Assembly: GCF_020091585.1 (NCBI RefSeq)
Contig: NZ_CP083582.1
Span: 1,302,001 to 1,366,000 of the forward strand
Origin: Kovacikia minuta CCNUW1
GTDB taxonomy: Bacteria; Cyanobacteriota; Cyanobacteriia; Leptolyngbyales; Leptolyngbyaceae
Direction: 5' to 3'
Length of the DNA: 64,000 nucleotides
Part shown: positions 1 to 63,503 of the stretch, in pieces
Numbering within the stretch: position 1 is the stretch's first letter
Layout of the letters: every line of letters begins with the position of its first letter
Translations under genes and position numbers: made by a program
The notes under the pieces: generated by a model
Seen by the model: only the letters and a program-made list of their open reading frames with translations
What the model was told of the DNA's origin: nothing
Databases searched by the model: none

Positions 1-1
1 G

Positions 2-136
2 GTTACAACGGGTATTGTAATGGTCTTTTTCTTCTGGCGGCGGGGCTGGTTCGAAAACTTTTCCACAATCACAGTGAAAGAGCAATATAAAGAGAACGCG
101 GTTAAAAAATTTCTTAAGGGGTTGCGTCGTCAATGA
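2..136 (+). CDS. 3'-end of an unidentified protein (partial)
   Basis: This is an open frame entering from the left edge and ending at TGA 134-136. The visible 44 residues begin with a hydrophobic stretch followed by a basic segment (WRRGW) and a charged tail ending in KGLRRQ, which looks like the end of a membrane-anchored protein. Its stop overlaps the ATG of the next gene in an ATGA arrangement, so the two are probably translationally coupled. The family cannot be recognised from this fragment. Confidence 0.55.
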   Translation, partial: VTTGIVMVFFFWRRGWFENFSTITVKEQYKENAVKKFLKGLRRQ

Positions 137-837
137 ACCCTGTCGATCCAATCATTCTTACGGCTTACCTGATCTGTCTTGCCTATTTCATCTATAAAAT
201 CATTGATTCCTTTAATGATGAGTACACCGCTCGTGTTGATGAAGAGCCACTAAAGCAGCATTTATCAGACAATAATTTACAAGATGTGATTGGCATCAGT
301 TTTGGGTTTGCTAAACGGTACGAATTCAACAAACTCGATCGCCTTCCCATCAGTATCAGCAATAAATCAAATAATTATTCCATTTATGTCGATTGGGACT
401 ACAGTACGTTTACCGATTTCGAGAAGCGCGCCCGCCGGGTTACCCGCTTAGCTCCTGGGACAACGTTAGATCTATCTCAAACCCAGGTATTTAGTGCCGT
501 TGCTCCTAATACAACCTTAAAAGAAACCATTACGGCTGAAGATTTGCTGCAACGAAAAGGAGAACGCAAAGACGATAAATTAGACACGGCTTCCCCCCTG
601 AACTTAGAGGTAGAAATTACAAAACCGCTGGTTGATTTAACCAAGCCCCCCGACTCCATCAAAAAACAGTTTCAAAAATTTAAAAAGCGAAAAGCAGACC
701 TGGACTTTTCTCTGGAACTGGTGTTTCGAGTTGTCGGTCCGGATCGGGCATTAAGCGGCGATCGTATCCGCATTCCCTGCAAGTTCATCCTCAAAAAACT
801 CCCCTGGACTGCGGGCTTACCCTGGAATCCAAAATAG
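133..837 (+). CDS. hypothetical membrane-anchored protein
   Basis: A 234-residue protein I do not recognise. Residues about 7-25 form one hydrophobic segment at the N-terminus, so it is likely a single-pass inner- or thylakoid-membrane protein. The rest is soluble and rich in Lys, Asp and beta-prone stretches, with a very basic section near residues 177-190. The ATG overlaps the stop of the preceding gene (ATGA), which supports this start and an operon with it. rnpB follows about 70 bp downstream on the same strand. No enzymatic motif is visible. Confidence 0.6.
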   Translation: MNPVDPIILTAYLICLAYFIYKIIDSFNDEYTARVDEEPLKQHLSDNNLQDVIGISFGFAKRYEFNKLDRLPISISNKSNNYSIYVDWDYSTFTDFEKRARRVTRLAPGTTLDLSQTQVFSAVAPNTTLKETITAEDLLQRKGERKDDKLDTASPLNLEVEITKPLVDLTKPPDSIKKQFQKFKKRKADLDFSLELVFRVVGPDRALSGDRIRIPCKFILKKLPWTAGLPWNPK

Positions 838-910
838 AGATACAGCCCCCACTTTTCCGAAATTCATCCCCCATTTCCCCTCTCCCTCCTTTACCGATAA
901 ACTGAACCTG

Positions 911-1380
911 GGGAGAGTAAGCGCAGGTGGTTGCAGTCGCTCAAAGAGCCTTCGGGTTCTTGAAGGTGGCTGAGGAAAGTCCGGGCTTCCCAAAGACCAA
1001 ACTTGCTGGGTAACGCCCAGTGCGGGTGACCGTGAGGATAGTGCCACAGAAACATACCGCCAATGGGAGGGATGAAGGATGGGGGATGGGGGATGAATTT
1101 CCTCCCTCATCCCTCCGATCTCATCCCTCCACAGGTAAGGGTGCAAAGGTGCGGTAAGAGCGCACCAGCAGTATCGAGAGGTGCTGGCTCGGTAAACCCC
1201 GGTTGGAAGCAAGGCCGCGGAACAACGGTTGGTCTTTTCCCAGTTCCATTGCAGAAGTAGGGGTTCCTGCTTCTGCCAGCCCGCTTGAGGTGTTTGGTAA
1301 CAAACATCCCAGATAGATAACCGCCCTCCCGATTGCATGGCATTCAGGACAACAGAACCCGGCTTATGTCTTGCTCTTCC
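911..1380 (+). ncRNA. rnpB: RNase P RNA (M1 RNA)
   Basis: This is the catalytic RNA of ribonuclease P, which removes the 5' leader of pre-tRNAs. Conserved type-A core elements are visible in order: GAGGAAAGTCCGGGC near 972, the ACAGAAACATACCGCC segment near 1047, GGTAAGAGCGCACCAGCAG near 1151, GGTAAACCCCGGTTGGAAGC near 1191, and the closing ACAGAACCCGGCTTATGTC near 1351. The ends are estimated from the P1-like flanks and could shift by about 10 bases. The P12 region carries an enlarged hairpin built from heptamer-like GGGGGAT repeats (1065-1131), a known site of short-repeat insertion in cyanobacterial rnpB. Open frames drawn across this region are not genes. Confidence 0.95.
1065..1131 (+). 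repeat. STRR-like hairpin inside rnpB (P12 region)
   Basis: GGAGGGATGA at 1066-1075 can pair with TCATCCCTCC at either 1107-1116 or 1121-1130, and the arm between holds ATGGGGG heptamers in tandem. It lies exactly where the P12 stem varies among cyanobacteria, so it lengthens a peripheral helix and should leave the catalytic core intact. Confidence 0.7.
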
Positions 1381-1574
1381 CCTTTTCCCAATCCCAACAG
1401 GAGATCAACGTTCGGATTTCAGATTTATGGAAGCTTGTGATTAAGTTCAATAAACATATAGATTCAGCAAAGCAATCCTGGATGAACGGTGTGATACTTT
1501 AAACCTGCATTAGGATTAATTCACGGAGAGCCAGTCTGTCCGCAGTCATGTCACAGGATTCGTAAGGTAAGCGT

Positions 1575-2192
1575 GTGCATAGCTCGACTTCCCACTTTGC
1601 AATGACAAACGAGTCAGGAACTGCGCCCGACTTCTGCTCACTCCTGGCAATTAGTGAACATAAACGGAGTGGTTTAATTCTGTGTAAGTCTTACCACGCA
1701 GAATTTGCCGGTCCCGGTGCAGCCGTTAGTACGGTTGTGGATCAATACTGTTTAGGAATTATTGCGATCGGCTCTCCAGAAATTATTGAACTGCAAACCC
1801 ACGAAGACCGACGGCAGGCATACGGGCGCAGAATTCAGTGGCAGCGCTGGCTACAACGGATTACCGATCATCCAGACCCAATGCAAAGGGCAGAAAAGCT
1901 ATTCTCCGGTTTTGAGGCATTTTTTGGTGAACAGGTTTTAATCAGGTTGCCGGACGATGTCCTGGCGCTTCTTGCAGGTGTTCTGCCTCAAACGATCACC
2001 ACAGTCCGCTCTCAGTATCGCTATTTAAGGCCAACAAGCGAATCGAGAGTCGAGTTAGATAGTACATACCCGCATCCAAGCATTGTTGCGCTGCATCCCA
2101 TCACCCTGCAAAACTTTGCCGGAGCCTCCATCCCTATCTGCGGCTCTGAAAGTTTCGTTGGTACATTTTCCAATCTCCCCTGCTCAGCTTAG
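1575..2192 (+). CDS. hypothetical protein, possible C-terminal helix-turn-helix
   Basis: A 205-residue open frame starting at GTG 1575; an internal ATG at 1602 is an alternative start. The segment from about residue 105 to 155 contains a pattern of the type 'LPDDVLALLAGVLPQTITTVRSQYRY'-like helices, which resembles a helix-turn-helix used for DNA contact. This is inference from pattern only. The N-terminal half has no motif I recognise, and the last 45 residues look unstructured. It stands alone between rnpB and a non-coding stretch. A regulatory role is possible but unproven. Confidence 0.5.
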   Translation: MHSSTSHFAMTNESGTAPDFCSLLAISEHKRSGLILCKSYHAEFAGPGAAVSTVVDQYCLGIIAIGSPEIIELQTHEDRRQAYGRRIQWQRWLQRITDHPDPMQRAEKLFSGFEAFFGEQVLIRLPDDVLALLAGVLPQTITTVRSQYRYLRPTSESRVELDSTYPHPSIVALHPITLQNFAGASIPICGSESFVGTFSNLPCSA

Positions 2193-2720
2193 GAATGGCA
2201 TTTAAATGAGTTCGAGATGGTGATGTTCTAAATATGTTGTTCGGATGCTGTAGAGACGTTCCGGCGGAACGTCTCTACGGATATCACCCACAGATCTGAA
2301 ACACGACCTTCGAGATTGGGGCGGGGCGAAGCAGGGGGCAAAATCTGTGCAACGGTTCCAGGGGCTAGGACCACATGCTTCGCCCGTACAGAATCAATCG
2401 CGATCGGATTGAACTCGTGATCCTTAAGGGCTGTTAGAAGACATCTTCAGAAAATAGAAGCCAGGAGCCAGGAGCCATTCTGGATTCTGACTCCTTATTT
2501 TCATGCTTGGGGGTGAGGGGGCATGGGAGGCTACCTTCTGTCGCCTGTTATAACTAGTAGGCGCGTATACAGGGCTGTCAAATAAAGTGTTCCATTTTGC
2601 AATTCCTGAGTTACCTTGTAAGCCAGACTTGAAGTAAATCCGCTAAGAGCTTGATTTGTAAAGCTTGTGGCGATTCGGTGTATGTCTGGTTTGTTTAAGG
2701 AAGCGGGTATTGAAGAAGGA
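2193..2720. other. non-coding stretch with one strong palindrome
   Basis: No convincing gene is seen here. It holds a 29-bp palindrome (2250-2278), short repeated CCAGGAG motifs near 2461-2480, and presumably the promoter of the deacetylase gene. Confidence 0.5.
2250..2278. repeat. palindromic repeat element
   Basis: GTAGAGACGTTCC (2250-2262) and GGAACGTCTCTAC (2266-2278) are perfect inverted arms around a GGC loop. There is no following T-run. It resembles the small dispersed palindromes common between cyanobacterial genes and could act as a terminator of the upstream gene. Confidence 0.6.
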
Positions 2721-4527
2721 ATGACCAACTCACTTGCGTTGTATCGACCGTCCATTCTGGAACTAGCACGGGGAGGAAATTTCCGGGCGATCGCGTACTG
2801 GATCAATAGTCTACTGGCACCCTATGGAATTTATGTGCGGGCAGCAATCAGCCGATCTGGGCACCTGAATCTTCTCGTCGATTTTCACCAATCAAGACGG
2901 AGAGAGTTTTATATCGCCCTGCGCAAACATCTGGTGCGCTTCATCTGCTACCGCCTGTGGACCCTGAATTCAGATGCAATTCAGGATGTCCGAATTGTTG
3001 CCCGGATTGCTGGGGACGCCAGATATTCTGTGGAAGCAGTCGGTTCGGTTGTCCACTCCTGCCACACGGGAAAAGCGTCGTCGTGCCGATCGCTTGCAGG
3101 AGATAGCCCGTCGGGGAACTGTGTGGCTTCGGTTCCAGGTTCTTCGATCGGTCATGGTCAGCCGGATCGCCTTCGCCAGCTTTTTCCTCTGTTATTGGCT
3201 GCTTTACTGGGAGATGGGGGGCAAATACGCGGCTGAGAAATCCCTGGAAGCCATGACATTTAATGCCATCCACCCCACAGAGCAGGTCGCCAGCGCTCAG
3301 GAGCCACCCACTCAAACTTCCGATAAGGGACAAATGCGGCTGGTATCACCGCAAACTCCAGCTGAAAGCAATATTGCTCAATTGGGGCAAACGATCGAAT
3401 CAGAAATTGCCTACGCTACGGCAACAGAACGCTTTCAAGGATTGACTGTTTCCCAGGTGACGCCAATCAACGGGGAAAAGGTTGTTGCACTGACGTTTGA
3501 TGATGGACCCTGGCCCGACACAACTGACAAGGTGTTGGATATCCTGAAGCAATTTAATATCAAAGCCACCTTCTATTGGGTTGGGCAGGCATTGCAGCAG
3601 AATCCAGATATCGCTAAGAAGGTCGTTGCTTCAGGGCATGCCGTTGGTAATCACACCTGGCGGCACCCCATGAACGATGTTGATTTGCAAACCGCAGCCG
3701 AGGAGATTGGCAATACTGCCAAGTTGATTTATGAAACAACTGGAGTCAGAACAAATTTGTTTCGACCCCCCGGTGGCAACTTAACCGGTTCAATGGTGCC
3801 CTATGCCAAGCAACTCAAGGACATCGTTACCCTTTGGGAAGTAGATTCGAACGACTATTACGTTTCTGCCCCCATCATTGTGGATAATGTGCTGACCCAG
3901 GTGAAACCGGGGGGCATTATCCTGATGCATGATGGAGGGGGCGATCGTACCCAAACAGTCCAGGCTTTGCCCCAAATCATTACAACCTTACAACGTCAGG
4001 GTTATCGGTTTGTTACTGTGCCTGAACTGCTGGCAATGGGAAATCCAGTGGAGGGCGCAGACAAAGCGCAATCCTCTCCTACGGATGCTGCCCCCTTCAG
4101 CCCTGCTCCTGGTGCCACCGGAGACATGGGGAATCCGTTTAACGCACCTGTGCCTACGCCCACGCCATCCGCTTCAACGATCGCGCCAGGTCCCGATGTG
4201 CCGGGAGCTAATGTGCCAGGATCTAATCTGCCGGGATCTAATCTGCCAGAAACCGATGCCAATGGCACCCTACCAGGGCTGGCTTCTCCCACCCCGACGG
4301 ACGCTCCTGTGGGACGCCCCACACCCAACAGCGGTGATGATTTGGTCCAGCCACCACTCGCACCACCACCAACCGTGGAGCAGTCTCCTAGTCTAAATGG
4401 TGACCTGCAAGGGGTTCCCCAGGATGCTCCATCAAATGAGCCAAACCTGAATCCGAGTGCAGATTCGACGGAAGAAGCGCTCGGCAGTTCTCCTCAGAGA
4501 TCAGTGGCAAGTCATTCCCGTGGTTAG
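2721..4527 (+). CDS. polysaccharide deacetylase (NodB domain), apparently frameshifted
   Basis: A carbohydrate esterase family 4 protein that would remove N-acetyl groups from a cell-wall or extracellular glycan. In the frame open from 2974 the NodB motifs are all present: TFDDGP (about residue 174), NHTWRHP, RPPGG, DSNDY and ILMHDGG. A transmembrane segment precedes them (about residues 62-80), and the last 150 residues are Pro-rich with PGSNLPGSNLP-type repeats, suggesting a wall-spanning tail. A separate frame from 2667/2721 encodes the N-terminal domain (MTNSLALYRPSILELARGG onward). Removing one base near 3017-3024 joins the two smoothly (GDAR/ILWKQS), so one gene with a +1 insertion is inferred. 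The stop lies one base before the ftsX ATG. Confidence 0.72.
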
Positions 4528-4528
4528 C

Positions 4529-5431
4529 ATGTTTCAAGTCGTCACAAAACTGGATTATCTTCTGCGTGAAACCTGCCTGGGTTTAAGGCGCGGCGGTTGG
4601 ATGAATTGGGCAGCGGTCAGCACGGTTACAGTGCTCCTGTTTTTGTTTGGCGTTGGTTTACAAGCTTCCTGGCATCTGGAAGGATTGCTGAATCGGTTTG
4701 GTAGCCAGTTGGAAGTATCGGTTTATCTGGATACGGGGATTCAGGCATCTGATCTGAAGCCCGTGGTGATGGCAATGCCTGAGGTCGCCGAGGTGCAGGA
4801 AGTGCCGAAGGAACAGGCCTGGGCTGCTCTGGTCAAGGAGATGGGCGTGTCGGACATTAACGGCGCAACGAAACAACTGGAGGGGAATCCTCTGGTGGAT
4901 GAGTTGAAGGTGAAGGCAAAATCATCTCAGGAGGTGCCTGCCTTAGCTCTAAAATTGGCGAAACTACCAGGGATTGATGAGGTTCAGTATGTGGATGAGG
5001 CGGTGAAGCGGGTTGCCCAGTTAAACCGGGGCTTAAGTTGGATTAGTCTGACGGTGACAACCTTGTTGACCTTAACCACGATCGCGGTGATTACCACGAC
5101 CATTCGCCTGATTGTGATGGCGCGGCGACGGGAAATAGAAGTGATGCAATTGGTAGGAGCCACTAACACCTGGATTTATCTACCGTTTATCCTGCAAGGT
5201 GTGGCTTTTGGTTTGGCGGGAGCGGCGATCGCCTGGGGATTAATCAGCACGATTCAGCATTTTTTGAAAAACCTAGTCTTACAACAACCGGAGTTTGTCC
5301 AATTTCTGGCAAATGAGCTGCAACTGAGTTCCTTCAAAGTCATTCTTTTGCCAATCATCCTATTAGGATTTGGCAGTTCCGTTGGGCTGATGGGAAGTCT
5401 GTTTGCCGTGCGCCGAATTGCCCTAAAGTGA
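4529..5431 (+). CDS. ftsX: cell division protein FtsX, ABC permease-like
   Basis: FtsX is the membrane partner of the FtsE ATPase. Together they couple septum formation to peptidoglycan hydrolase activation. The roughly 300-residue protein shows the family layout: a first membrane segment near residues 25-45, a large extracytoplasmic loop (about 46-155), and three further membrane segments including one in the conserved 'ARRREIEVMQLVGATN' region, typical of FtsX/MacB permeases. The open frame extends to 4457, but ATG 4529 is preferred because it follows the deacetylase stop by one base and matches usual FtsX N-termini. The coupling to a glycan deacetylase fits a shared role in envelope remodelling. 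No ftsE is visible nearby. Confidence 0.9.
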   Translation: MFQVVTKLDYLLRETCLGLRRGGWMNWAAVSTVTVLLFLFGVGLQASWHLEGLLNRFGSQLEVSVYLDTGIQASDLKPVVMAMPEVAEVQEVPKEQAWAALVKEMGVSDINGATKQLEGNPLVDELKVKAKSSQEVPALALKLAKLPGIDEVQYVDEAVKRVAQLNRGLSWISLTVTTLLTLTTIAVITTTIRLIVMARRREIEVMQLVGATNTWIYLPFILQGVAFGLAGAAIAWGLISTIQHFLKNLVLQQPEFVQFLANELQLSSFKVILLPIILLGFGSSVGLMGSLFAVRRIALK

Positions 5432-5555
5432 GGAAGTAGGAATAGGAATTAGAAGTTAGGAATTGGGAGTTAGGAGTTGAAGGCTCTGCTCACAACTCCT
5501 GATTCGTCGCCCCTATTTCCTAGCTCCCCGTTCCTAACCCCTCAACCTATCATCC

Positions 5556-6437
5556 ATGAAGTCTCAGTGGGAATCCTTTCTACAGAATTTGGGAGAGTGG
5601 CGCGGAACGTTTGCCCGCTTTTCTCCTCAGGCAGAATTCCTTGGGGATACGCCAACGGTAGTTTCCTTTGAGGGGTTGAATACGAATCAAACCGTGCGTC
5701 AGGTCGTTCGACGGTATGCCACGGATGTGAGCGTGCGATCGGACGAATCTTTGGAAGGAATTGCACCGACTGAAGAAAGGGTGCTGGAATACAGTTCTCT
5801 GGGAGGAGGTTTACTATTTTTCGAGGATGGCGCATTTTCCCAGGGTTCAATTCAGTTGGCTCCCTTTTCAGAATTTGGGGCAGAGCTGGGATTCATTGAA
5901 ACCGTTGGTGATGTGCCTGGAAATCGTCGGCTACGCCTGGTGCAGCTGTATAACAATAGACGGCTTGAACAGATTACCTTAATCCGGGAGCAACGGGCAG
6001 GAACCCCCGTTGTCGAAAATCCACCGCTTCAGCTAGCAGATCTGATTGGTGAATGGCGCGGAGAGGCAGTTACCCTGTATCCCGATTGGCGTCATCCTGA
6101 TACTTTTCCTACCCATTTGAAGCTGAGTTTGGATAACGATCGCCTGCTGCAACAACTCTCTTATGGAGAAGGGGGTTCCGATCGCACCCTCACCTCTAGC
6201 GCCACGATTCACGAATCTGTCCTCAAGTTTGACCAGGGGACTCACCTGGTTCAAGTTGTGATGCTACCCAATGGGGCATCTTCTACCTGTCCTGTGGAAA
6301 TTCAGTTAAGGCAGCCGTTTTTCCTAGAAGCTGGCTGGCTAATTCAACCAACCCTGCGGCAACGGATGATTCGCAGCTATAACAGTAAAGGAGAGTGGGT
6401 GAGCTTGACCCTGGTGACTGAACAGAAAGTTTCCTAA
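5556..6437 (+). CDS. DUF3598 family protein
   Basis: A 293-residue protein of a family restricted to cyanobacteria and plastids, with no settled function. It contains two similar halves, each starting with a WRG motif (LGEWRGTF near residue 14 and LIGEWRGEA near residue 165) followed by beta-rich sequence, which suggests a duplicated lipocalin-like barrel. No signal peptide or membrane segment is present, so it is likely cytosolic. It begins with ATG after a repeat-rich intergenic region and seems to be transcribed alone. Confidence 0.82.
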   Translation: MKSQWESFLQNLGEWRGTFARFSPQAEFLGDTPTVVSFEGLNTNQTVRQVVRRYATDVSVRSDESLEGIAPTEERVLEYSSLGGGLLFFEDGAFSQGSIQLAPFSEFGAELGFIETVGDVPGNRRLRLVQLYNNRRLEQITLIREQRAGTPVVENPPLQLADLIGEWRGEAVTLYPDWRHPDTFPTHLKLSLDNDRLLQQLSYGEGGSDRTLTSSATIHESVLKFDQGTHLVQVVMLPNGASSTCPVEIQLRQPFFLEAGWLIQPTLRQRMIRSYNSKGEWVSLTLVTEQKVS

Positions 6438-6553
6438 GTAGAAAATAGAAGCCAGAATGCAGGAGCTAAAGCCAGAATAGCTGCTCTCCCGCTTCCTGGA
6501 TTTTGGTTCCTGCTTATTCTTCCTAGAATGGGCGCAGATGATGGGAGGCTAAA

Positions 6554-6796
6554 ATGAAAACGCTTGCGACTTTTTTAACATCTTTGATTGTGGCGGGATG
6601 GATTGGTGCGATCGCCGTTCTCTCGGTTCAAAACTTCACGCCCATCACCATCAAATTCCTCCGGTTTGAATCTTTTCAAATTCCGATTGGGTTAGTTTTA
6701 GCATTTAGCGTTGGGCTGGGGGTTGTTGGTGCCGCAATCGTTCCTTCCCTCCTGGGCTTCCCTGGTTTTACCGGAAATTCAGACGAAGACTATTGA
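6554..6796 (+). CDS. LapA-domain (DUF1049) small membrane protein
   Basis: An 80-residue protein with two hydrophobic helices (about residues 5-26 and 45-68) separated by the short NFTPITIKFLRF-type loop typical of the lipopolysaccharide assembly protein A domain. The 'SVQN...V.F..F' pattern after the first helix is the family signature. Its exact role in cyanobacteria is unknown; in proteobacteria LapA works in LPS assembly. A GGGAGG sequence lies just upstream of the ATG. Confidence 0.75.
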   Translation: MKTLATFLTSLIVAGWIGAIAVLSVQNFTPITIKFLRFESFQIPIGLVLAFSVGLGVVGAAIVPSLLGFPGFTGNSDEDY

Positions 6797-6827
6797 GAGT
6801 ATTCTTAATTCCTAATTTTTTCCTGTC

Positions 6828-7178
6828 ATGGCAACCTGGGTTTGTATCAAAGAATGTGGTGCCTGCTGTCATCTTGATCCCACCGATCGTCCTGACCTGG
6901 CAGAATACCTTACCCCCGACGAACTGGCGCTCTACCTGAGTATGGTAGGAAAGGGGGGGTGGTGCGTCAACTTTGACCATGCCACGCGGGAGTGCCGCAT
7001 CTATTCCAATCGCCCGCGCTTTTGTCGGGTTGAGTCAGAGGTGTTTCGCGATCTATTTGGGATTGAGCCAGAGGAACTGAACGAGTTTGCGATCGATTGC
7101 TGCCGCGAGCAAATTGAAGGTGTTTACGGAGATCGCAGTTTAGAAATGCTGCGGTTTGACCAGGCAGTTGGCATTTAA
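6828..7178 (+). CDS. YkgJ family cysteine cluster protein
   Basis: A 116-residue soluble protein. Its cysteines are spaced as CIKECGACC near the N-terminus, then WCVNFD, C in TRECRIY, and RFCR, the pattern of the YkgJ/UPF0153 zinc- or iron-binding cluster family. Members are thought to bind a metal cluster, but the biochemical role is not settled. The start ATG at 6828 lies 31 bp after the LapA-domain gene, so the two may be co-transcribed. A second CC pair (DCCREQ) near residue 96 is also typical. Confidence 0.85.
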   Translation: MATWVCIKECGACCHLDPTDRPDLAEYLTPDELALYLSMVGKGGWCVNFDHATRECRIYSNRPRFCRVESEVFRDLFGIEPEELNEFAIDCCREQIEGVYGDRSLEMLRFDQAVGI

Positions 7179-7253
7179 TCTTGCCATTTAGAGCAAAACC
7201 TCAGATAATGAAAACAAAATGAAAACACATTAGTCGATTCCTTCAGATTTATT

Positions 7254-7727
7254 GTGGAAGTTTACGTCTCCCCTCAAACCCAGCCAAGGATGTCCTTAGA
7301 GGTTTCTCCGTTCGGTGGTTCTCTCCCAATTGTTGAACCTGAACTAGAAAATACCTCACCCCTCTGGATCGAAGAAAAAGAAGTTTCATCTGCGATCGTG
7401 GCAACGGTTACCCCCCCTCAGCCGGCTTCACCAGAGCAAGGCTCGCGCAACTTCTGGAAGGTATTTGGTACAACCTTTATCACCATTTTTCTGGCAGAGT
7501 TGGGAGACAAAACCCAGGTTGCCACTCTACTGATGAGTGCCGAATTTCATGCGCCCTGGATTGTTTTTACGGGAGCCGCTGCTGCCCTCATCACGACCAG
7601 TCTTCTCGGTGTGCTGGTTGGTCGCTGGTTATCCACCTTCCTGGCACCCAAAACCCTCGATACCGCTGCTGGAATTACGCTGGCGCTCATTTCAGCCTGG
7701 CTCTTGTGGGACGTAATCAAAGGATAA
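7254..7727 (+). CDS. GDT1/TMEM165 family half-size transporter, first partner
   Basis: UPF0016 (GDT1) proteins export Mn2+ or Ca2+ across membranes. This 157-residue protein has one copy of the family repeat: the signature ELGDKTQ at about residue 83 within helix one, then two more helices ending in WLLWDVIKG. Full-size members carry two repeats, so this is a half-size protein expected to pair with the next gene. The first about 70 residues are a hydrophilic extension. The frame begins at GTG 7254; ATG 7290 is an alternative. Manganese handling fits a photosynthetic cell that must protect photosystem II assembly. Confidence 0.85.
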   Translation: MEVYVSPQTQPRMSLEVSPFGGSLPIVEPELENTSPLWIEEKEVSSAIVATVTPPQPASPEQGSRNFWKVFGTTFITIFLAELGDKTQVATLLMSAEFHAPWIVFTGAAAALITTSLLGVLVGRWLSTFLAPKTLDTAAGITLALISAWLLWDVIKG

Positions 7728-7934
7728 AGGCTAAGGGATATCAAGGATAAAAGTTTTAAGTTTTGAATTTTAGGTTTTGAATTTTAAGTTTTGAGTTCTG
7801 AAATGGAGTGTGGGTGCAGGGTTGGAGGAGATTGAAATCTCCGTTTCCCCATCTCCCGTATCTCTTTTTTCCTTCTCCTTTGCTCTCTGCCTTCGTTTTA
7901 TCCTTTATCCTTCCCTACCCCCTACCCCCTAGCT
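7728..7934. repeat. short heptamer-like repeats between the GDT1 genes
   Basis: From about 7750 to 7800 the DNA repeats variations of AAGTTTTGAATTTT. This is a degenerate tandem of 7-8 bp units of the kind seen in several intergenic gaps of this window. The rest is pyrimidine-rich and holds no gene. Confidence 0.5.
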
Positions 7935-8228
7935 ATGGATTGGCATCTTCTTGGATTAAGCTTTATCACGGTATTTTTATCTGAATTGGGGGACAAAAGC
8001 CAACTAGCCGCGATCGCCCTGGGGGGTAACTCTAAGTCTCCTCGTGCTGTGTTTTTGGGGGCGGCGGCGGCGCTGCTGGTGGCAAGTTTGCTGGGGGTAA
8101 TTGTGGGAGAGGAAACTGCCCAACTGCTTCCCGCTCAATGGGTGAAGATCGTTGCCGCAGTTGGGTTCGCGGTAATGGCAGTGCGCCTGTTGCTGCCTAC
8201 TTCTGACTCTACGGAGGACGCCAATTAA
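7935..8228 (+). CDS. GDT1/TMEM165 family half-size transporter, second partner
   Basis: A 97-residue half-size member of the same UPF0016 family, with the signature ELGDKSQ at about residue 17 and three predicted helices. It is compact, without the long hydrophilic N-terminus of its neighbour. The two ELGDK(S/T)Q motifs of the pair would together supply the acidic cation-binding site of a full transporter, so a heterodimeric Mn2+ exchanger is inferred. Start ATG 7935 is clear. Confidence 0.85.
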   Translation: MDWHLLGLSFITVFLSELGDKSQLAAIALGGNSKSPRAVFLGAAAALLVASLLGVIVGEETAQLLPAQWVKIVAAVGFAVMAVRLLLPTSDSTEDAN

Positions 8229-8324
8229 ATCTTCCAGCGCTTAATCAGTTCACCTGCTACCCTGGAAGATACGGGAGGTGAAACAGATGGGGGTTATTTG
8301 CGAGCATACCTCTAATCGATTCTG

Positions 8325-8862
8325 ATGGTGAGAGAAGATCATTTAGCACGGCTCAGGCAAGGCGTTGATCATTGGAACCACTGGCGAAGGAGCAATCCTG
8401 AGATTATTGTTGATTTAAGTGAAGCCGATCTGAGTGAGGCTAGTCTCAGCGAGATTGATCTGCGCGCTGCTAATTTGGATGGGGTTAATCTGAGCAGGGC
8501 CAGATCTAAGTGGGGCGGAGTTGAGTGGTTCAAATCTGCATGTGGCAAACCTGAGTCGAGCTAATCTCACGAGTGCCAGGCTCAGTCGAGCCATTCTTTA
8601 TATTGCTAACCTGGAGCGGGCAAACTTGTGCATGGCTGACCTCGACAATGCCGATTTAAGTTGGGCAGGGCTGATTGAAGCGAACCTTCAGCGGGCAAAT
8701 TTGTTTGAAGCCAACCTGCATGGTGCCAATCTGAAAAAAGCTGACCTGGATGGGGCAACTTTAGCAAAGGCGAATTTGACTCAGGCAAACCTCGATCGCG
8801 CCCATCTTGGAACCGCAAACTTAAAGGGAGCAATTTGGTCCGATGGCACCGTTCACGCATAA
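8325..8862 (+). CDS. pentapeptide-repeat protein, apparently frameshifted
   Basis: A protein built of A(D/N)LXX repeats, which fold into a right-handed quadrilateral beta helix. The function of such proteins in cyanobacteria is mostly unknown. Two overlapping frames carry one continuous repeat series: the first (from 8325) has a short helical start and repeats to NLSRA, and the second resumes with DLSGA, ELSGS, NLHVA and runs to the stop at 8862. Removing the A near 8503 in GGGCCAGATC restores NLSRA-DLSGA exactly. The intact protein would be about 179 residues and cytosolic. It ends 110 bp before the lone gene cassette. Confidence 0.8.
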
Positions 8863-8972
8863 GGAGAGATTTACGGAGTTGTCAATTTACGTCGTGAAAC
8901 AACGCCTCCCCTTGCGGTCGGTAACAGAGTTTTCTCGTTTCGCTTATAGTTCGCTGCCGCTCAATTGGGTTG

Positions 8973-9802
8973 TTATGCCACAAGTTCTCTCCTGGGAAAA
9001 GTAATCGTAAACTTATTCGCTAGTTCGAAATGTTACAGAGGATTATTGGTCAAAAGAGAGTAAGGCAATGGGTGAGGTGAGCATAATCAATAAAAGCTAC
9101 TACGAAAGGGCGTTGATAAACAAGCAATGTGATGAATGAGCTAAGTAACGGCAATCTAGAATTTCTCTTTGAGCCAGACTTCTGGATGTGGGGACCATGT
9201 TTTGAGGTGATCTTCTTCTTTGAGAACAAGTGCCCTTTATCAGTTTTTGAAGACACTCTTCTGGCTGACTCAATAGTTTCTAGTTTTTCAGCGAAAATTT
9301 TTTCCTTCAAGGATGAATCGAGACGATGTGTTCTTAGAGCAGAAAATTGGACAACTCCTCTTGGATTTATTTATTACCAAATGGATCGGGGTGATCATGA
9401 TGATTATTTTCTCTCAACCTACCCTCGTCAAGTTGAATTTCATTGTGGTCAGTTGCACTGGAGAGACTTGGAAAATATCCAACCAGTCGTAAATCTGCAC
9501 ATTGGATTGATTGCTTTCGTTCGTAGGCTTCATACACGCTTAGGATTTCATCACGTAGTCATTCATCACGAGGATGCCCCGTGGTTTAAGCGGGGTAGTC
9601 TTCAATCTCCAGGGATTCTCATTTATGATTGGGTTGCCGAGTATTCTGGCTTAGAGATCCAGCAAACTGTTGAACCATGCTATGCACTTGTGCCGTTCGA
9701 CAAAAGCACAATAGCCGAGGCAGCATAACAAGCGTGGTGCAGTGGATTGCTGTTGTCGGTTGGTGGAGTTGGTAAAGCTCCTGCAACCGCTGACCACGAA
9801 CG
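8973..9802 (+). mobile_element. lone integron gene cassette (about 830 bp)
   Basis: Integron cassettes start with TTRRRY just after the cut G and end at their own attC. Here the attC left core is GCATAAC (9723-9729), whose complement is GTTATGC, and exactly GTTATGC occurs upstream at 8972-8978. The cassette therefore runs from T8973 to G9802, carries one open frame (9129-9728), and ends in a folded attC. The integrase gene is 51 kb away, so this is a cassette outside the main array. The 5' boundary is inferred from this match. Confidence 0.75.
9129..9728 (+). CDS. cassette-borne hypothetical protein
   Basis: A 199-residue protein of unknown family. It is acidic and aromatic, with many Trp, Phe and His residues (for example RRLHTRLGFHHVVIHHEDAPWF near residues 140-160), has no membrane segment or signal peptide, and shows no motif I can name. 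ATG 9129 is used; ATG 9132 follows directly. The stop TAA (9726-9728) lies inside the left core site of the attC, the compact arrangement typical of integron cassettes. Base composition and codon use look more AT-rich than the flanking rlmD and pentapeptide genes, in line with foreign origin. Confidence 0.65.
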   Translation: MMNELSNGNLEFLFEPDFWMWGPCFEVIFFFENKCPLSVFEDTLLADSIVSSFSAKIFSFKDESRRCVLRAENWTTPLGFIYYQMDRGDHDDYFLSTYPRQVEFHCGQLHWRDLENIQPVVNLHIGLIAFVRRLHTRLGFHHVVIHHEDAPWFKRGSLQSPGILIYDWVAEYSGLEIQQTVEPCYALVPFDKSTIAEAA

Positions 9803-9808
9803 TTATTA
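9723..9808 (+). other. attC recombination site of the lone cassette
   Basis: Left core GCATAAC (9723-9729) and right core GTTATTA (9802-9808) flank an imperfect inverted repeat. AGCGTGGTGCAGTGGATTG on the left pairs with CAACCGCTGACCACGAA on the right, with an unpaired G after the first arm as expected for the extrahelical bases of attC. Its sequence closely matches the two attC sites near 62.4 and 63.3 kb. Confidence 0.88.
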
Positions 9809-9846
9809 GTTTTGAATTGGGTAGTTGGCAATTGATAATTGACAAA

Positions 9847-11281
9847 TTGCCCTGGCAGCAGGGTCAACTCATTGAACTGGTAATCACCGACCTGAGCGAT
9901 AGCGGGGATGGGGTGGGTCGTTTGGGGCAACGGGTCGTGTTTGTGCCGGATACGGTAGTGGGCGATCGTATCGTGGTGCGTCTGGTGCGGGTCAAACCCC
10001 AGTATGCCCACGGTAAGCTGCACCAACTGTTAGAGCCTTCCCCCCACCGAATTCGTCCCCATTGTATCGTGGCGGATAAGTGTGGTGGTTGCTACGTGAC
10101 AGCATGTGGACTATGCCTACCAGCTAGAAGCGAAGCAAAATATTGTAGCTCAAGCTTTGGAGCGAATAGGTGGCTTTACGGGCGTAACCGTTGCTCCCAT
10201 CCTGGCAGCATCAAATTTTTTAGGTTATCGCAATAAGGCAACCTATCCCCTGGCGCGGGCTTCTGCCAGAAGTGCGGCTGAAACGGGTCAGGTGCAGGCT
10301 GGCTATTACCAGAAAGGGAGCCACCAGATCGTTAACCTGAATCAGTGCCCGGTTCAAGATGTGCGCCTCAATCCACTCCTGGCAGAGGTTAAGCAGGATA
10401 TTCAAAAGCGTGGGTGGGGGATCTACGATGAAAAACTTCATCGGGGGAAACTGCGCCATCTGGGGTTGCGGATCGGTCGGCGCACGGGAGAAATGCTGCT
10501 GACGCTGGTTGTGAAGGATAGCAACCTAGTAGGGATTGAGGAGCAAGCACAGGAATGGTTGAACCGCTATCCCAATCTGGTTGGCGTATCGGTTAATATC
10601 AACCCCGATCGGACGAATGCCATTTTGGGTTCCGAGACTCACACTATTGCAGGGCGAGCCTATCTTCAAGAAGAGTTTGCTGGATTGACCTTCCAGATTC
10701 GCCCCGACACTTTTTTTCAGGTGCATACCGAGCAGGCAGAAGCTTTGTTGCAGGTAATTCTGGAGGAGTTGAAGTTGCAGGGGAGCGAGATCCTGGTGGA
10801 TGCTTACTGCGGTATTGGTACGCTGACGCTGCCATTGGCACAACGGGTCAGGCAGGCGATCGCAGTAGACGTTCAACCTGCCGCTGTAGAGCAGGCAAAA
10901 CTCAATGCTCGGCTGAACCACCTGGAAAATGTGACCTTCCAGACAGGAGCCGTTGAAACCGTGCTGCCCGTGCTGTCAGTACAGCCTGACATCATTTTGG
11001 TAGACCCTCCGCGCAAAGGCTGCGATCGCTCTGTGCTGGAAACACTCCTACAAATACACCCTGAGCAGATTGTTTATGTTAGTTGCAACCCGGCAACCCT
11101 TGCCCGTGACCTCAAAATCCTGTGTGCAGACAGCACCTATTCCCTAACCCAAGTACAACCTGCCGACTTTTTCCCCCAGACTTCCCATGTGGAATGCGCC
11201 GCATTTTTGGTTAGAAGCCCAGGATTCGTTTCGAAGCCAGGAGCTAAGGAATCAGAGTCAGAAGACGCGGAGATAGGGTAA
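9847..11281 (+). CDS. rlmD: 23S rRNA (uracil-5-)-methyltransferase RlmD-like, apparently frameshifted
   Basis: A SAM-dependent RNA uracil-5-methyltransferase of the RlmD/TrmA family. An N-terminal TRAM domain (QGQLIELVITDLSDSGDGVGR) is followed by the cluster-binding cysteines CGGC. The C-terminal half has the SAM pocket (VDAYCGIGTLTLPLA), the DPPRKG motif and the catalytic VSCNPATLARD. Two frames carry the gene, and dropping one A near 10098 joins CGGCYV to QHVDYAYQLEAK. The start is uncertain: the frame is open back through the attC of the neighbouring cassette to a GTG at 9742, and no ATG lies in between. TTG 9847 matches family N-termini best. Insertion of the cassette may have changed how this gene is initiated. 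Confidence 0.83.
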
Positions 11282-59972: not shown

Positions 59973-60939
59973 TTATCTATCTAATGGACTCCGCACCCCG
60001 CGACCGCCTCGATTCAGGACGTGAGTATAAATCATCGTCGTCTTTACATCTTTATGCCCTAACAACTCCTGAACGGTACGGATGTCGTAGCCATCTTCAA
60101 CTCAAATGGGTAGCAAAGCTATGGCGCAAAGTATGACAACCCACTCGTTTCGCAATGCGTGCGGCTTGAACGGCTGACTTTAACGATCGCTGCACACCAC
60201 TCTCATGCAAATGATGCCGACGCACAACTTCACCACGCGGATCACGCGATCGACTAAACGAAGGAAACACGAACTGCCAAATCCAGGCACGATCTGCATT
60301 GGGATACTTGCGCTCTAACGCAAAAGGCAAATACACCGATCCATACCCCTGGTTCAAATCCCGCTCATGCAGTTGTCTAACCTGTTGAAGATGCACTTGT
60401 AGTGGTTCAATCAGGCTGATAGGAAGCATCGTTACGCGACTTTCATGTCCCTTCGCGTCACGCACCACAATTTGATGCTGGGCAAAATCTACATCTTTGA
60501 TGCGCAGGTGTAATCCTTCAGTTAGCCGTAGTCCACTGCCATATAACACCTTCAGCACTAACCCAGGCACCCCTGATACTTGTTGCAAAACCATCTGCAC
60601 TTCGTCTTTACTCAGTACTGTCGGTAAGTAGCGTGAACGTTTTGCCCGTACCGCATCTAATGGGCCCTCCAATTCCTGCTGCAACACATAGCGGTATAGA
60701 AATAACAATGCACTCAATGCTTGATTTTGGGTAGAAGCAGAAACCTGTCCATCTACAGCGAGAGAAGTGAGAAACGCCTCAATTTCCGCATGACCCATCT
60801 CTTTAGGATGACGCTTGTTGTGAAACAGAATATACCGACGAATCCACGCAACGTAGCTCTGCTCAGTACGGTAGGAGTAATGTTTCAGCCGGATGGTGTC
60901 TCGCACTTGGTCAAGCAGTTTTTTGGGGCGGCTTTCCAT
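59973..60939 (-). CDS. intI: integron integrase IntI, apparently frameshifted
   Basis: A tyrosine recombinase that inserts and removes gene cassettes at attI and attC. The N-terminal SAM-like domain starts [19 protein letters not shown]. The catalytic Arg is in [20 protein letters not shown], and the IntI-specific extra helix region is [20 protein letters not shown] followed by [28 protein letters not shown] has the HxxR pair. This frame then stops at 60097. Removing one base at about 60100-60103 continues [20 protein letters not shown] and the nucleophile Tyr in [11 protein letters not shown] to the stop at 59973. With that the protein is about 321 residues, normal for IntI. It reads away from the cassettes, the classic orientation. 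Confidence 0.93.
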
Positions 60940-61414
60940 CGTTAATTGTAGATGCTTAGAACAGATGTACTTAGTATCCCATTTTACATGTTTTCCGTTG
61001 GTGAAGATTTTGTGAAGGCAGCCGCCTAACTTCCCTCCTGAGGGCTACTATACAGATTCAAATCTGTATAACACCCCTAATCTGGGTAGTTATACAGACT
61101 TAGAGCCGGATAAGATCCCATTTAGGGTCGTTATGCAGATCTTAAGCCGGATAAGATCCCATTTTCGGGAGTTATACTGACAATCTTCAGCCTATCTCCC
61201 CCACCTGGGGTGTTATCTCGATTCAGATCTGCCTAATCACCCCAAATAGGGTGGTTATCCAGATTAGGGAGACTAGGATCAGTCTAAATAAGAGTTAGGT
61301 CGCTTAAGTCCTGCCTCAAATACGATTTGAGATTCGCATAAGTGGCGGCTACGAACTTAACGTGCTAGAACTTGTTGATGAGTAACCTGGTTCAATATAC
61401 TTTCATAGTTTCAA
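60940..61414. other. integron recombination region (attI side) before the first cassette gene
   Basis: 475 bp between intI and the first cassette gene, with no gene. The leftward intI promoter lies at its left end, and the 41-bp repeat array and first cassette boundary (G61294, TTAGGT) at its right. A cassette promoter Pc could lie here, but I could not identify it with confidence. Confidence 0.6.
61048..61294 (+). repeat. degenerate 41-bp tandem repeats beside the integron attI
   Basis: Units begin at 61089, 61130, 61171, 61212 and 61254 with GTTAT, spaced 41, 41, 41 and 42 bp. The next step of 40 bp lands on the cassette boundary GTTAGGT at 61294. A first weaker unit starts near 61048 with CTATAC. 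Each unit ends in a small hairpin such as GTATAAC-ACCC (61066-61076) with GGGT-A-GTTATAC (61084-61095). The units share ATCCC/ACCCC and AGGG(T) arms but differ in the middle. Confidence 0.8.
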
Positions 61415-62442
61415 ATGGATCTCCTCAGAATATTGCGCTCCAAAATTGATGTGCTTGAGGAAGGGGATTACATTCCTGGGTTGCGAGCTATACTTTTACA
61501 TATCGAAACAGCTTCCCGTCATCTTTTACGAGGACAAGAACAAGAAGACGAAACTGCTTTTACAGATGCAATTTATCGCACAAATCAAGCATTTGAAGGT
61601 AGCCTCAAGGAAGCTTATCGAGTTCTCGCAGAGCAAGATCCTGAAAGGAAGAGACCTTTCGATATTGAAAACTTTTTTGAGCAAAATAGTATTTTCCGTC
61701 AACGGGTTTTAGCTCAGTTTACTAATTATCGAACGGAGTGGAGAAACCCTTCTGCTCATGACTACAAGCTAGACTTTGATGAGAGCGAAGCCTTTTTAGC
61801 CATTGTTTCTGTAGCGGCTTTTGCCTGCCTTGTACTTGATCAAATCACTGAAAAGCTTTCCTATCTTCAAGCCAAAACCGAAGCTGATACGAAGCAAGTA
61901 GAAATCCAAGAGCGTCTTGCAAGTGTAGAAGATAGTGATCTCTTAAATCGAACTGCTCAGATTTTGCGAGAGTTCTCACATCAGCAGTCGAGTTTTAATA
62001 TAGATGGAGCTAAACGAACTGAAGTACAGGTTATTGGGCAACTGGCAGGCTTCTTTGCTTCAGCAGCACCAGATCTTGAGGTTCTCAGCGAATATAAAAT
62101 TCCTTCTGAAGCTTCTGCAATAGCTGATTTTATTATTTCTGATAAAAGTAATCGTGTCGTAATTGAGCTAAAAAGAGCTAGACCTGGGCGGCAGTTAATT
62201 GACGCAGGTGTAGCACAGGTGGAGCGATATATGTTTTTAAGCAACATAAAGGCTGCGATCCTTTTTCTATTCTCTGAATTTGGAGGTGAATTAGATATTC
62301 AGGAACGTAACGTTTCAAATATTGACGGCAAGATTTTGATCTTGAAGCCTGAAAAGCTACGACCTAACAATTCGGGTGCAGCGGATTGACCGAAGCCGCT
62401 TGGGTGAGTTGCAAAGACTCTGGCAACCGCTGACCCGAACCG
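61295..62442 (+). mobile_element. integron gene cassette 1
   Basis: The cassette starts with TTAGGT (61295-61300), which is the complement of its own attC left core ACCTAAC (62362-62368), and ends at the cut G62442. It carries the HEPN/PD-(D/E)XK candidate gene. It is the cassette nearest the integrase, so the most recently gained in the usual model. Confidence 0.88.
61415..62389 (+). CDS. cassette-borne HEPN plus PD-(D/E)XK nuclease candidate
   Basis: A 324-residue soluble protein. The N-terminal half is helical and contains WRNPSAHDYKLDFDESEAF (about residues 110-128), where Arg-x4-His fits the catalytic motif of HEPN ribonucleases. The C-terminal half has an ADFIIS...NRVVIELKRA stretch (about residues 231-251), the Asp and Glu-x-Lys pattern of PD-(D/E)XK nucleases. 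The fusion of two nuclease-type domains suggests an abortive-infection or toxin role. This is inference, and family membership was not tested. ATG 61415 is used. The last nine codons overlap the attC of the cassette. Confidence 0.75.
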   Translation: MDLLRILRSKIDVLEEGDYIPGLRAILLHIETASRHLLRGQEQEDETAFTDAIYRTNQAFEGSLKEAYRVLAEQDPERKRPFDIENFFEQNSIFRQRVLAQFTNYRTEWRNPSAHDYKLDFDESEAFLAIVSVAAFACLVLDQITEKLSYLQAKTEADTKQVEIQERLASVEDSDLLNRTAQILREFSHQQSSFNIDGAKRTEVQVIGQLAGFFASAAPDLEVLSEYKIPSEASAIADFIISDKSNRVVIELKRARPGRQLIDAGVAQVERYMFLSNIKAAILFLFSEFGGELDIQERNVSNIDGKILILKPEKLRPNNSGAAD

Positions 62443-62448
62443 TTATGC
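62362..62448 (+). other. attC recombination site of cassette 1
   Basis: Left core ACCTAAC (62362-62368), right core GTTATGC (62442-62448). TTCGGGTGCAGCGGATTG pairs with CAACCGCTGACCCGAA, leaving one unpaired G after the first arm, as in functional attC hairpins. The sequence is close to the sites at 9723 and 63279. Confidence 0.92.
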
Positions 62449-63358
62449 CGCTTTAGTTCTTGGTGGAGAGAAACCGGAGCTTTACATATCGAGACTTCAA
62501 AATTAAGCTAGAGCAGGCTTGTTTGTGAGGTGTTACTTTGGAAGTAGTTGGGAGACAAACATCAAGCTTTGAGAGAAATCTTTATGCTGCCAAGCTCTCC
62601 GGAAGATTGGAGTGACAAGAAAGGTTGGGAAGATTACTGGCGAAAAATTTTGGTAGAAGATGAATGGTTGATTAGCAAACGGCTATTACAGGACACTGGA
62701 TATTTTGATTCTGTTGATCACTTTAAATCTGAAGGTATTAAAAGTATTCTGTTTTTAGGTTGTGGTATTTCCCAAGCCCCAAAGTTCTTTGCTTTTAGAG
62801 GTTTGCAGGCTACAGGTTTAGATATATCAGAGACAGCCATAAATTTTGCCGTAAATTATGTGTTTGAGTATGAAAAATTTTACCAATGGTTTAACTCAAA
62901 TACATTCAAAGTAAACAAGCAGGTTTGGCTTGAATTCTGTTCTATATCTAAAAAAGTAAGCTATGAATGTGGAAGCATACTTGATCCAAATGTTGCCAAA
63001 GAAACCTTTGATTTAGTTATAGCTACAAAGATGTTGCAAGGTTATTGTAGAGAACAATCCAAGATACGCGAGGTTTTAGAATGTATAGATCAAAGATTGA
63101 GGTGTAATGGAAAGTTATTGATTTTTACAATCAATGCTCCAAGTGCTAGAGAAATGATTGATAACCAACTGACAGCAATGGGATATAACAAGATTATGCA
63201 GCTATCAGATAGTAAATCAGGTAAGTCCTTCCTGCACATGCTTGCAAGTGCTTAGCTCTTAACTTGGCAGCGATCGCGGCATAACAACTCTGGTGCAGCG
63301 GATTTACTCAAGCCGTTTGCCGAGTTGCAGAGGTACTAGCAACCGCTGACCAGAACCG
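62443..63358 (+). mobile_element. integron gene cassette 2
   Basis: The cassette starts TTATGC (62443-62448) and its attC left core is the complementary GCATAAC (63279-63285); it ends at G63358. It carries the methyltransferase gene. Confidence 0.9.
62548..63255 (+). CDS. cassette-borne SAM-dependent methyltransferase
   Basis: A 235-residue class I methyltransferase candidate. Motif I is ILFLGCGISQAPKFFAFRGL, followed by the acidic GLDISETAINFAV (about residues 80-92), and a motif IV-like region FDLVIATKMLQGY (about residue 155). The start PSSPEDWSDKKGWEDYWRKIL is typical of small-molecule (TPMT-like) methyltransferases. The substrate is unknown. The frame starts at TTG 62548; ATG 62584 is an alternative. 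The gene is AT-rich relative to the core genes, fitting its mobile origin. Confidence 0.72.
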   Translation: MGDKHQALREIFMLPSSPEDWSDKKGWEDYWRKILVEDEWLISKRLLQDTGYFDSVDHFKSEGIKSILFLGCGISQAPKFFAFRGLQATGLDISETAINFAVNYVFEYEKFYQWFNSNTFKVNKQVWLEFCSISKKVSYECGSILDPNVAKETFDLVIATKMLQGYCREQSKIREVLECIDQRLRCNGKLLIFTINAPSAREMIDNQLTAMGYNKIMQLSDSKSGKSFLHMLASA

Positions 63359-63364
63359 TTAGGT
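63279..63364 (+). other. attC recombination site of cassette 2
   Basis: Left core GCATAAC (63279-63285), right core GTTAGGT (63358-63364). CTCTGGTGCAGCGGATTT pairs with GCAACCGCTGACCAGAA, again with an unpaired G after the first arm. Confidence 0.92.
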
Positions 63365-63503
63365 GGCTTAGGCTATTGGTGAGGTTATTATTTGAAGCTT
63401 GGTGCTAGAATGCTAGCCAAGTAAAGCAGAATCTTACCTGCCGAGTAATGTTACTTGGTTTCAGTTTTTATAATCACTATAGTTCGATGTTCTTGAGGTC
63501 CCC

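Follow-up and report, generated by a model that had tools for sequence, protein, structure and literature searches.

A single integron cassette at a chromosomal site next to rlmD, and lone attC sites in two cyanobacterial genomes

The cassette beside rlmD and the main array

The window analysed here (64,000 nucleotides; G000:C1:1302001-1366000) belongs to a cyanobacterial genome of 8.56 Mb in three contigs (G000), and carries a lone integron cassette between a pentapeptide-repeat gene and rlmD on one side of the window and an integron array on the other (Table 1). The proteins closest to its RlmD (74-76%) came from cyanobacteria under the names Leptolyngbya, Stenomitos and Trichocoleus, and rlmD was the only match in the genome over the family cut-off. 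The pentapeptide-repeat gene had no single open frame over 8335-8862 (four stops in the frame tried). This gene, rlmD (~10096) and the intI of the main array (~60097) were each split by a frame change, and these could be assembly errors or real decay. The match of the main-array integrase to TIGR02249 (60097-60939, minus strand) scored 383.7 bits, with the C-terminal end (profile positions 273-314) in another frame, and lay about 50 kb from the lone cassette. Four further attC matches followed the second array attC beyond the window. A second intI, at C3:32045-32983, had an open frame of 349 aa without a stop (468 bits); the surrounding region (C3:20001-36000) held a complete integron, with an intact intI and 5 attC matches, on the 58.5-kb contig C3, which is perhaps a plasmid.

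Table 1. Positions of the features of the window, of candidate lone cassettes elsewhere and of group II introns abutting attC sites (a slash marks a crossover point; positions without prefix are those of the window)
Feature	Position	Strand	Length	Basis and remarks
Left neighbour, 3' part of pentapeptide-repeat gene	8476..8862	+		Name by eye from sequence; 8476-8846 matches L098 upstream of rlmD
Inserted cassette	8973..9802	+	830 bp	Crossovers 8972/8973 and 9802/9803; ends set by second copy and core match
Cassette gene	9129..9728	+	199 aa	One main open frame of the cassette
attC	9720..9810	+		R'' GCATAAC 9723-9729; R' GTTATTAG from 9802; 88 bits, covariance model R1
Right neighbour, rlmD	9803..11281	+		TIGR00479 in two frames, 9895-10095 and 10097-11194; frame change ~10096
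intI of main array	59976..60939	-		TIGR02249; split by frame change near 60097
attI region, main array	61234..61294	+		Crossover 61294/61295; first cassette start matches own attC core; resembles other attI regions
First attC, main array	62359..62450	+		Covariance model, 88.3 bits
Second attC, main array	63276..63366	+		Covariance model, 90 bits
Non-attI lone cassette	C1:6143848		747 bp	Better than all decoys; attI rank 5210
Non-attI lone cassette	G025:C1:899519		1885 bp	Better than all decoys; attI rank 6714
Non-attI lone cassette	G025:C1:2874425		1389 bp	Better than all decoys; attI rank 10347
Weaker non-attI lone cassette	C1:3767857			p 0.036; attI rank 9231
Weaker non-attI lone cassette	C1:6742507			p 0.011; attI rank 2921
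Group II introns	L058:5866, L059:1089, L074:2216, L007:11483	-		
Group II introns	L077:11305, L076:6185, L009:4332			
Group II intron, diverged eighth	L058:9128	-		

The attC of the lone cassette was recognised with a covariance model (R1; E 3.5e-23), which replaced a motif scan, itself the successor of a hand-written finder whose strict L-box rule missed known sites. The model was built from 8 sites of the studied genome, the window attC among them, so that its score is partly circular; by BLAST, independently of the model, this attC alone found four other places in the genome at 72-78% identity. The close match to the two array sites that the initial annotation had noted was borne out by nearly equal scores. 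The consensus fold of the 8 sites included R''/R' pairing, an unpaired spacer, an L box and single unpaired bases, and for 9 of its 19 pairs one or more sequences had both bases exchanged with the pairing retained. As in other integron cassettes, the attC sits at the 3' end of the cassette gene, the main open frame of the insert and the one noted in the initial annotation. Apart from the sites in Table 1, the window held no further attC match at E up to 0.1 other than antisense echoes of the two array sites; in the genome-wide list the closest attC matches were 52 kb off on the right and, at 26 bits, about 120 kb off on the left, with an intI about 50 kb away, as expected of a single attC lacking an integrase (SALIN).

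At its 5' end the cassette reads TT followed by bases complementary to its own R'' core (GTTATGC/GCATAAC), and the GTTATGC at 8972 is the sole occurrence on the plus strand of window positions 1-9800. The start core by itself was not significant against decoy cores from other attC sites (p 0.24), and the left boundary therefore leans on a second copy of the cassette, found 260 kb away at C1:1571679 and also spanning 830 bp between crossover points. The cassette start proposed from the 7-bp core alone was thus found in place and its position upheld by the second copy. With these ends, window positions 8973-9802 are confirmed as one 830-bp integron cassette, which the initial annotation had delimited correctly to the base.

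Similarity between the two copies starts at GTTATGC and stops at the attC GTT. In BLAST they shared 554 of 655 positions (85%) in a piece that ends at the attC GTT; a second piece, starting at TTGTTATGC, had 70% identity over 107 columns. About 75 bases between the two pieces remained unaligned, and a global alignment of the 830-bp copies gave 676 identities in 849 columns. The flanks showed no relationship: 20 of 60 bases agreed to the left and 13 of 60 to the right, and local alignment of the 300 bases on the left scored 15 at best, compared with a mean of 17.5 for shuffled sequences. The same unit is therefore present in different surroundings, as a movable cassette would be. The 5' end of the second copy matches its own R'' over 11 bases, of which the window copy keeps 7. 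The proteins of the two copies are the same at 159 of 198 codons, and dN/dS is about 0.21 (NG86) or 0.32 (YN00); the cassette gene has thus been maintained by purifying selection since its split from the second copy, and the copies are old. Its protein matched no Pfam or NCBIfam family at E 0.001, and had no match in 96 relatives, in plasmids or in phages and none confirmed in viral contigs; among 388 genomes of the class, 2 others matched (one at 47%, one weakly). A single-sequence structure prediction of the protein had a mean pLDDT of 35.

The second copy lies in a two-cassette cluster and ranked fairly high (279 of 15,934) against the attI profile described below, and because of this rank and the second attC its position is less clear-cut as a non-attI site than that of the window cassette. 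The cassette following it (L008:6764-7421) contains a HicAB-like pair (named by eye) with an attC of its own at 7330-7421 (42.6 bits).

The insertion site and its origin

The insertion point reads G/TTATTAG, which fits G/WT, and has no attI features to its left, as in insertions at genomic attG sites. When the window flanks were joined, the rlmD frame remained open across the junction for 579 nt, 147 of them to the left; the insert therefore lies in or just before the first rlmD codons. The left flank was compared with an attI profile built from the terminal 34 bases of each of six attI regions and tested on 15,934 GTT sites from stretches of the genome, where it ranked 7701, like a random GTT site. 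When each attI region was left out of its own profile, five of the six ranked 23rd or better and the main-array attI 213th; a seventh attI, on C2, ranked 7, which is not independent because its last 60 bases are the same as those of the main-array attI.

Of 77 relative loci found, 69 were compared for an empty junction. Both neighbours were present in only one of these 69 loci, that of Leptolyngbyaceae cyanobacterium HOT.MB2.61 (L098), in which the pentapeptide-repeat gene and rlmD are adjacent without the 830 bp, the anchors being 68 bp apart compared with 1005 bp in the window. About 100 bp to the left of the insert likewise had no counterpart in this strain. In the 5' piece of rlmD its DNA identity was the highest (78%), but the remainder of the protein had 71% identity, against up to 76% in others, so that it need not be the nearest relative. 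The exact empty junction predicted by the initial annotation, G joined directly to TTATTAG, was not seen among the 69 loci compared, because the intergenic DNA of HOT.MB2.61 is too diverged to align.

The second-copy ends, the rank of the left flank and the gene order in HOT.MB2.61 all support the original proposal of a single cassette in a non-attI site by rlmD, and the cassette was very probably placed there by IntI-mediated insertion of its attC at the G/TT site 5' of the gene. From the anatomy, the ends, the non-attI flank and the absence of the insert from HOT.MB2.61, all of them observed, we infer IntI as the agent; which IntI acted, when, and that the cassette does not readily leave are likewise inferred. 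The attC hairpin of the cassette would have been recombined by an integron integrase with an ordinary chromosomal G/TT site ('attG'). The integrase would have acted in trans, and may have been the main-array intI before its frame change, the intact intI on C3 or an intI since lost. With a single attC, the cassette would be hard to excise and would stay in place.

A remnant of an integron platform, in which an attI and one cassette were left after loss of intI and the other cassettes, is an unlikely origin, even though platforms of this kind do exist in the genome. Cassettes start at attI-like regions (at least 100 columns) at C2 ~43 kb, C1 ~986 kb, C1 ~7042 kb and C2 ~285 kb, none of which had an adjoining intI in the family search, and these clusters look like platforms that lost their intI; at L075:8784-8828 on C2, 15 residues of the start of IntI (93% identical) are left. 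The left flank of the window cassette has no attI similarity, which makes a decayed platform unlikely there; no other attC is near it in the window, no piece of intI was found by family search or by tblastn of L001 (the attC with 1.5 kb on either side), and the adjacency of the pentapeptide-repeat gene and rlmD in HOT.MB2.61 also points against a remnant.

The presence of a second copy in the same genome would also be expected if the cassette had been copied from elsewhere by homologous recombination, transposition or segmental duplication. Such a route is highly unlikely, since the similarity ends at the two integrase crossover points with no flanking DNA in common, no terminal repeat was noticed by eye at the cassette ends, and the copies, being about 85% alike, are neither of them a recent copy of the other. 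That no insertion took place, and that an old chromosomal gene with an attC-like hairpin at its 3' end represents a stage before cassette birth, is hardly credible given that what the two copies have in common is precisely the cassette and no more, and that the neighbours are adjacent in HOT.MB2.61, although a 47%-identical homologue in another genome (G377, L157) has no attC by model R1. Integrase-mediated insertion at an attG site accordingly remains the preferred reading of the locus.

In the coordinates of the extracted loci, regions resembling attI and followed by cassettes, with no intI in the family search, were observed in L075 (~8.4 kb), L053 (~7.9 kb), L072 (~4.0 kb) and L076 (~3.1 kb). 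At four further places (L062 and L065, at C1:2459374 and C1:3612779; L063, at 3074415; and L170, at G025:2524023) the cassettes seem to start past an imperfect inverted repeat plus TAATACATA or TAATAAGTT, possibly a second type of attI without intI.

Lone attC sites in the studied genome and its relatives

In the genome-wide covariance search, 150 of 1439 first-look candidates were scored, giving 69 attC matches at E up to 1, which were clustered on the same strand with gaps of up to 5 kb. At 30 bits or more, 60 sites fell into 35 clusters, of which 25 were singletons; raising the cut-off to 40 bits left 48 sites in 28 clusters with 21 singletons. Some of the 25 were not truly lone: those at C2:17134 and C2:22414 extend the big C2 array, the one at C1:4036305 has a weak attC match (16.9 bits) and an intron-marked attC upstream, and those at 1393898 and 1509017 are both followed by the same core, like that of a next cassette. 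In a relative assembled as a single contig (G025), 30 attC matches of 29 bits or more formed 27 clusters, 25 of them singletons. The remark that off-target cassettes are rarely seen in place seems not to fit these numbers of lone attC sites in the two genomes.

A clear cassette start (p of 0.05 or less against decoys) was found for 6 of the 25 singletons in the studied genome and 5 of the 25 in G025, with about one in each expected by chance; the window cassette, placed by its copy, is not among these. With clear starts in 11 of 50, most singletons are therefore attC-like hairpins whose left end could not be fixed. Besides the window cassette, three lone cassettes and, on weaker grounds, two more began in sequence unlike attI (Table 1). 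The singleton at C1:3351684 (774 bp, p 0.022) was rejected as a clear non-attI case because a stretch resembling attI competes with it about 150 bp to the left.

The cassette at G025:C1:899519 splits a gene, the joined flanks giving a continuous frame for a 91-residue protein. A search of 57 genomes returned this protein in two pieces in G025, in one stretch in G044 (residues 1-90 at 70%), and as a weaker 42% match with a stop in G005, while G015, of the same genus as G025, had no match. G044 and the joined G025 junction aligned over 117 DNA columns without a gap, an 11-residue insertion lying elsewhere in the protein, and the junction triplet reads ATT in G044 and GTT in G025. This one natural case shows a clean insertion, with no duplication or loss of the target. 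The exact empty site indicates the same process in a relative, and so supports the insertion reading of the window cassette.

Across the family, with 74 candidates scored per genome, attC matches were found in all 35 genomes searched, the studied one included (range 4 to 74, median 26), and among 23 other genomes of the class 2 had none and 5 had one or two (median 7); the attC-poor genomes of the class, several of them small, suggest that false matches are few. An intI at E up to 1e-60 was found in 24 of the 35 family genomes, and the remaining 11, nearly all drafts, had attC matches without an intI at this threshold. In G022, 83 attC matches were found, mostly in a few dense stretches (by eye).

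Relation to known off-target insertion

Cassette insertion at genomic secondary sites was reportedly described by Francia in 1993. Recombination of attC with secondary sites by IntI is described with the consensus GWT or GNT (PMC4618277, PMC10127599), and an insertion of this kind is said to leave a cassette with one recombination site and less chance of excision (PMC2426708). The attG sites of Loot et al. (2024), as summarised in PMC12444791, are broadly distributed over genomic loci of E. coli, and off-target insertion as a source of clusters of attC sites without integrase (CALIN) was proposed by Cury et al., according to PMC8618304. By default, IntegronFinder 2 calls a CALIN only from two attC sites (PMC9024848), and the name SALIN has been given to a single attC lacking an integrase (PMC12690207).

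The window cassette shares with secondary-site or attG insertions, as these sources describe them, a cassette with an attC, a G/TT or G/WT triplet outside attI and a single attC. The cited attG work, as summarised, is experimental and made use of E. coli and a class 1 integrase, whereas what is read here would be an old natural insertion in a cyanobacterial chromosome. The cassette also exists in a second copy, and the G025 case supplies an exact empty site. As a lone attC without an adjoining intI the locus is by definition a SALIN, a relative of CALIN; single sites of this kind go unreported by IntegronFinder 2 under its default as described, whereas here the cassette ends and the insertion site were resolved. 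With sedentary chromosomal integrons the genome has in common an intI, an attI and an attC array in the same chromosome, but the window cassette is 52 kb away from the array and has no attI. Off-target insertion at attG and SALIN are thus already known, and what is added here is the scale, the natural junctions and the exact empty site. Among the titles listed by a literature search with little coverage of subscription journals, none dealt with lone cassettes spread through cyanobacterial genomes, and this is weak evidence of novelty.

These observations suggest that integrons can scatter genes over the chromosome, besides storing them in one place. It is conceivable, though we hold it with more doubt than conviction, that the integron of this cyanobacterial family is largely a scattering device, with cassettes leaving arrays over long periods and settling singly at many ordinary chromosomal sites, some of them inside or at the start of genes. 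If so, most attC clusters of a genome would be lone cassettes, and much of the gene gain through integrons would be invisible to surveys of arrays only. Since default software leaves out single attC sites, gene gain through lone cassettes in cyanobacteria may be underestimated. Off-target cassette insertion is familiar from laboratory work; to learn what sites it uses, and if the genes it brings in are retained, one needs natural cases in which the target and both ends can be read. The two genomes provide many candidate lone cassettes, one of them with an exact empty site.

At eight places (Table 1) a group II intron lies in antisense orientation with its 5' end directly adjoining the R'' side of an attC. 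Seven copies share about 701 bp, are about 99% alike and have the same 3' end, while the eighth keeps the 5' end and then differs. Rfam RF02001 matched seven of the eight at 127-134 bits (in L054 for the L007 place, with the L074 copy left out). In the sole copy translated (L077) no open stretch exceeded 132 codons, and it therefore looks ORF-less. The intron is probably a member of the group IIC-attC class that has been active recently.
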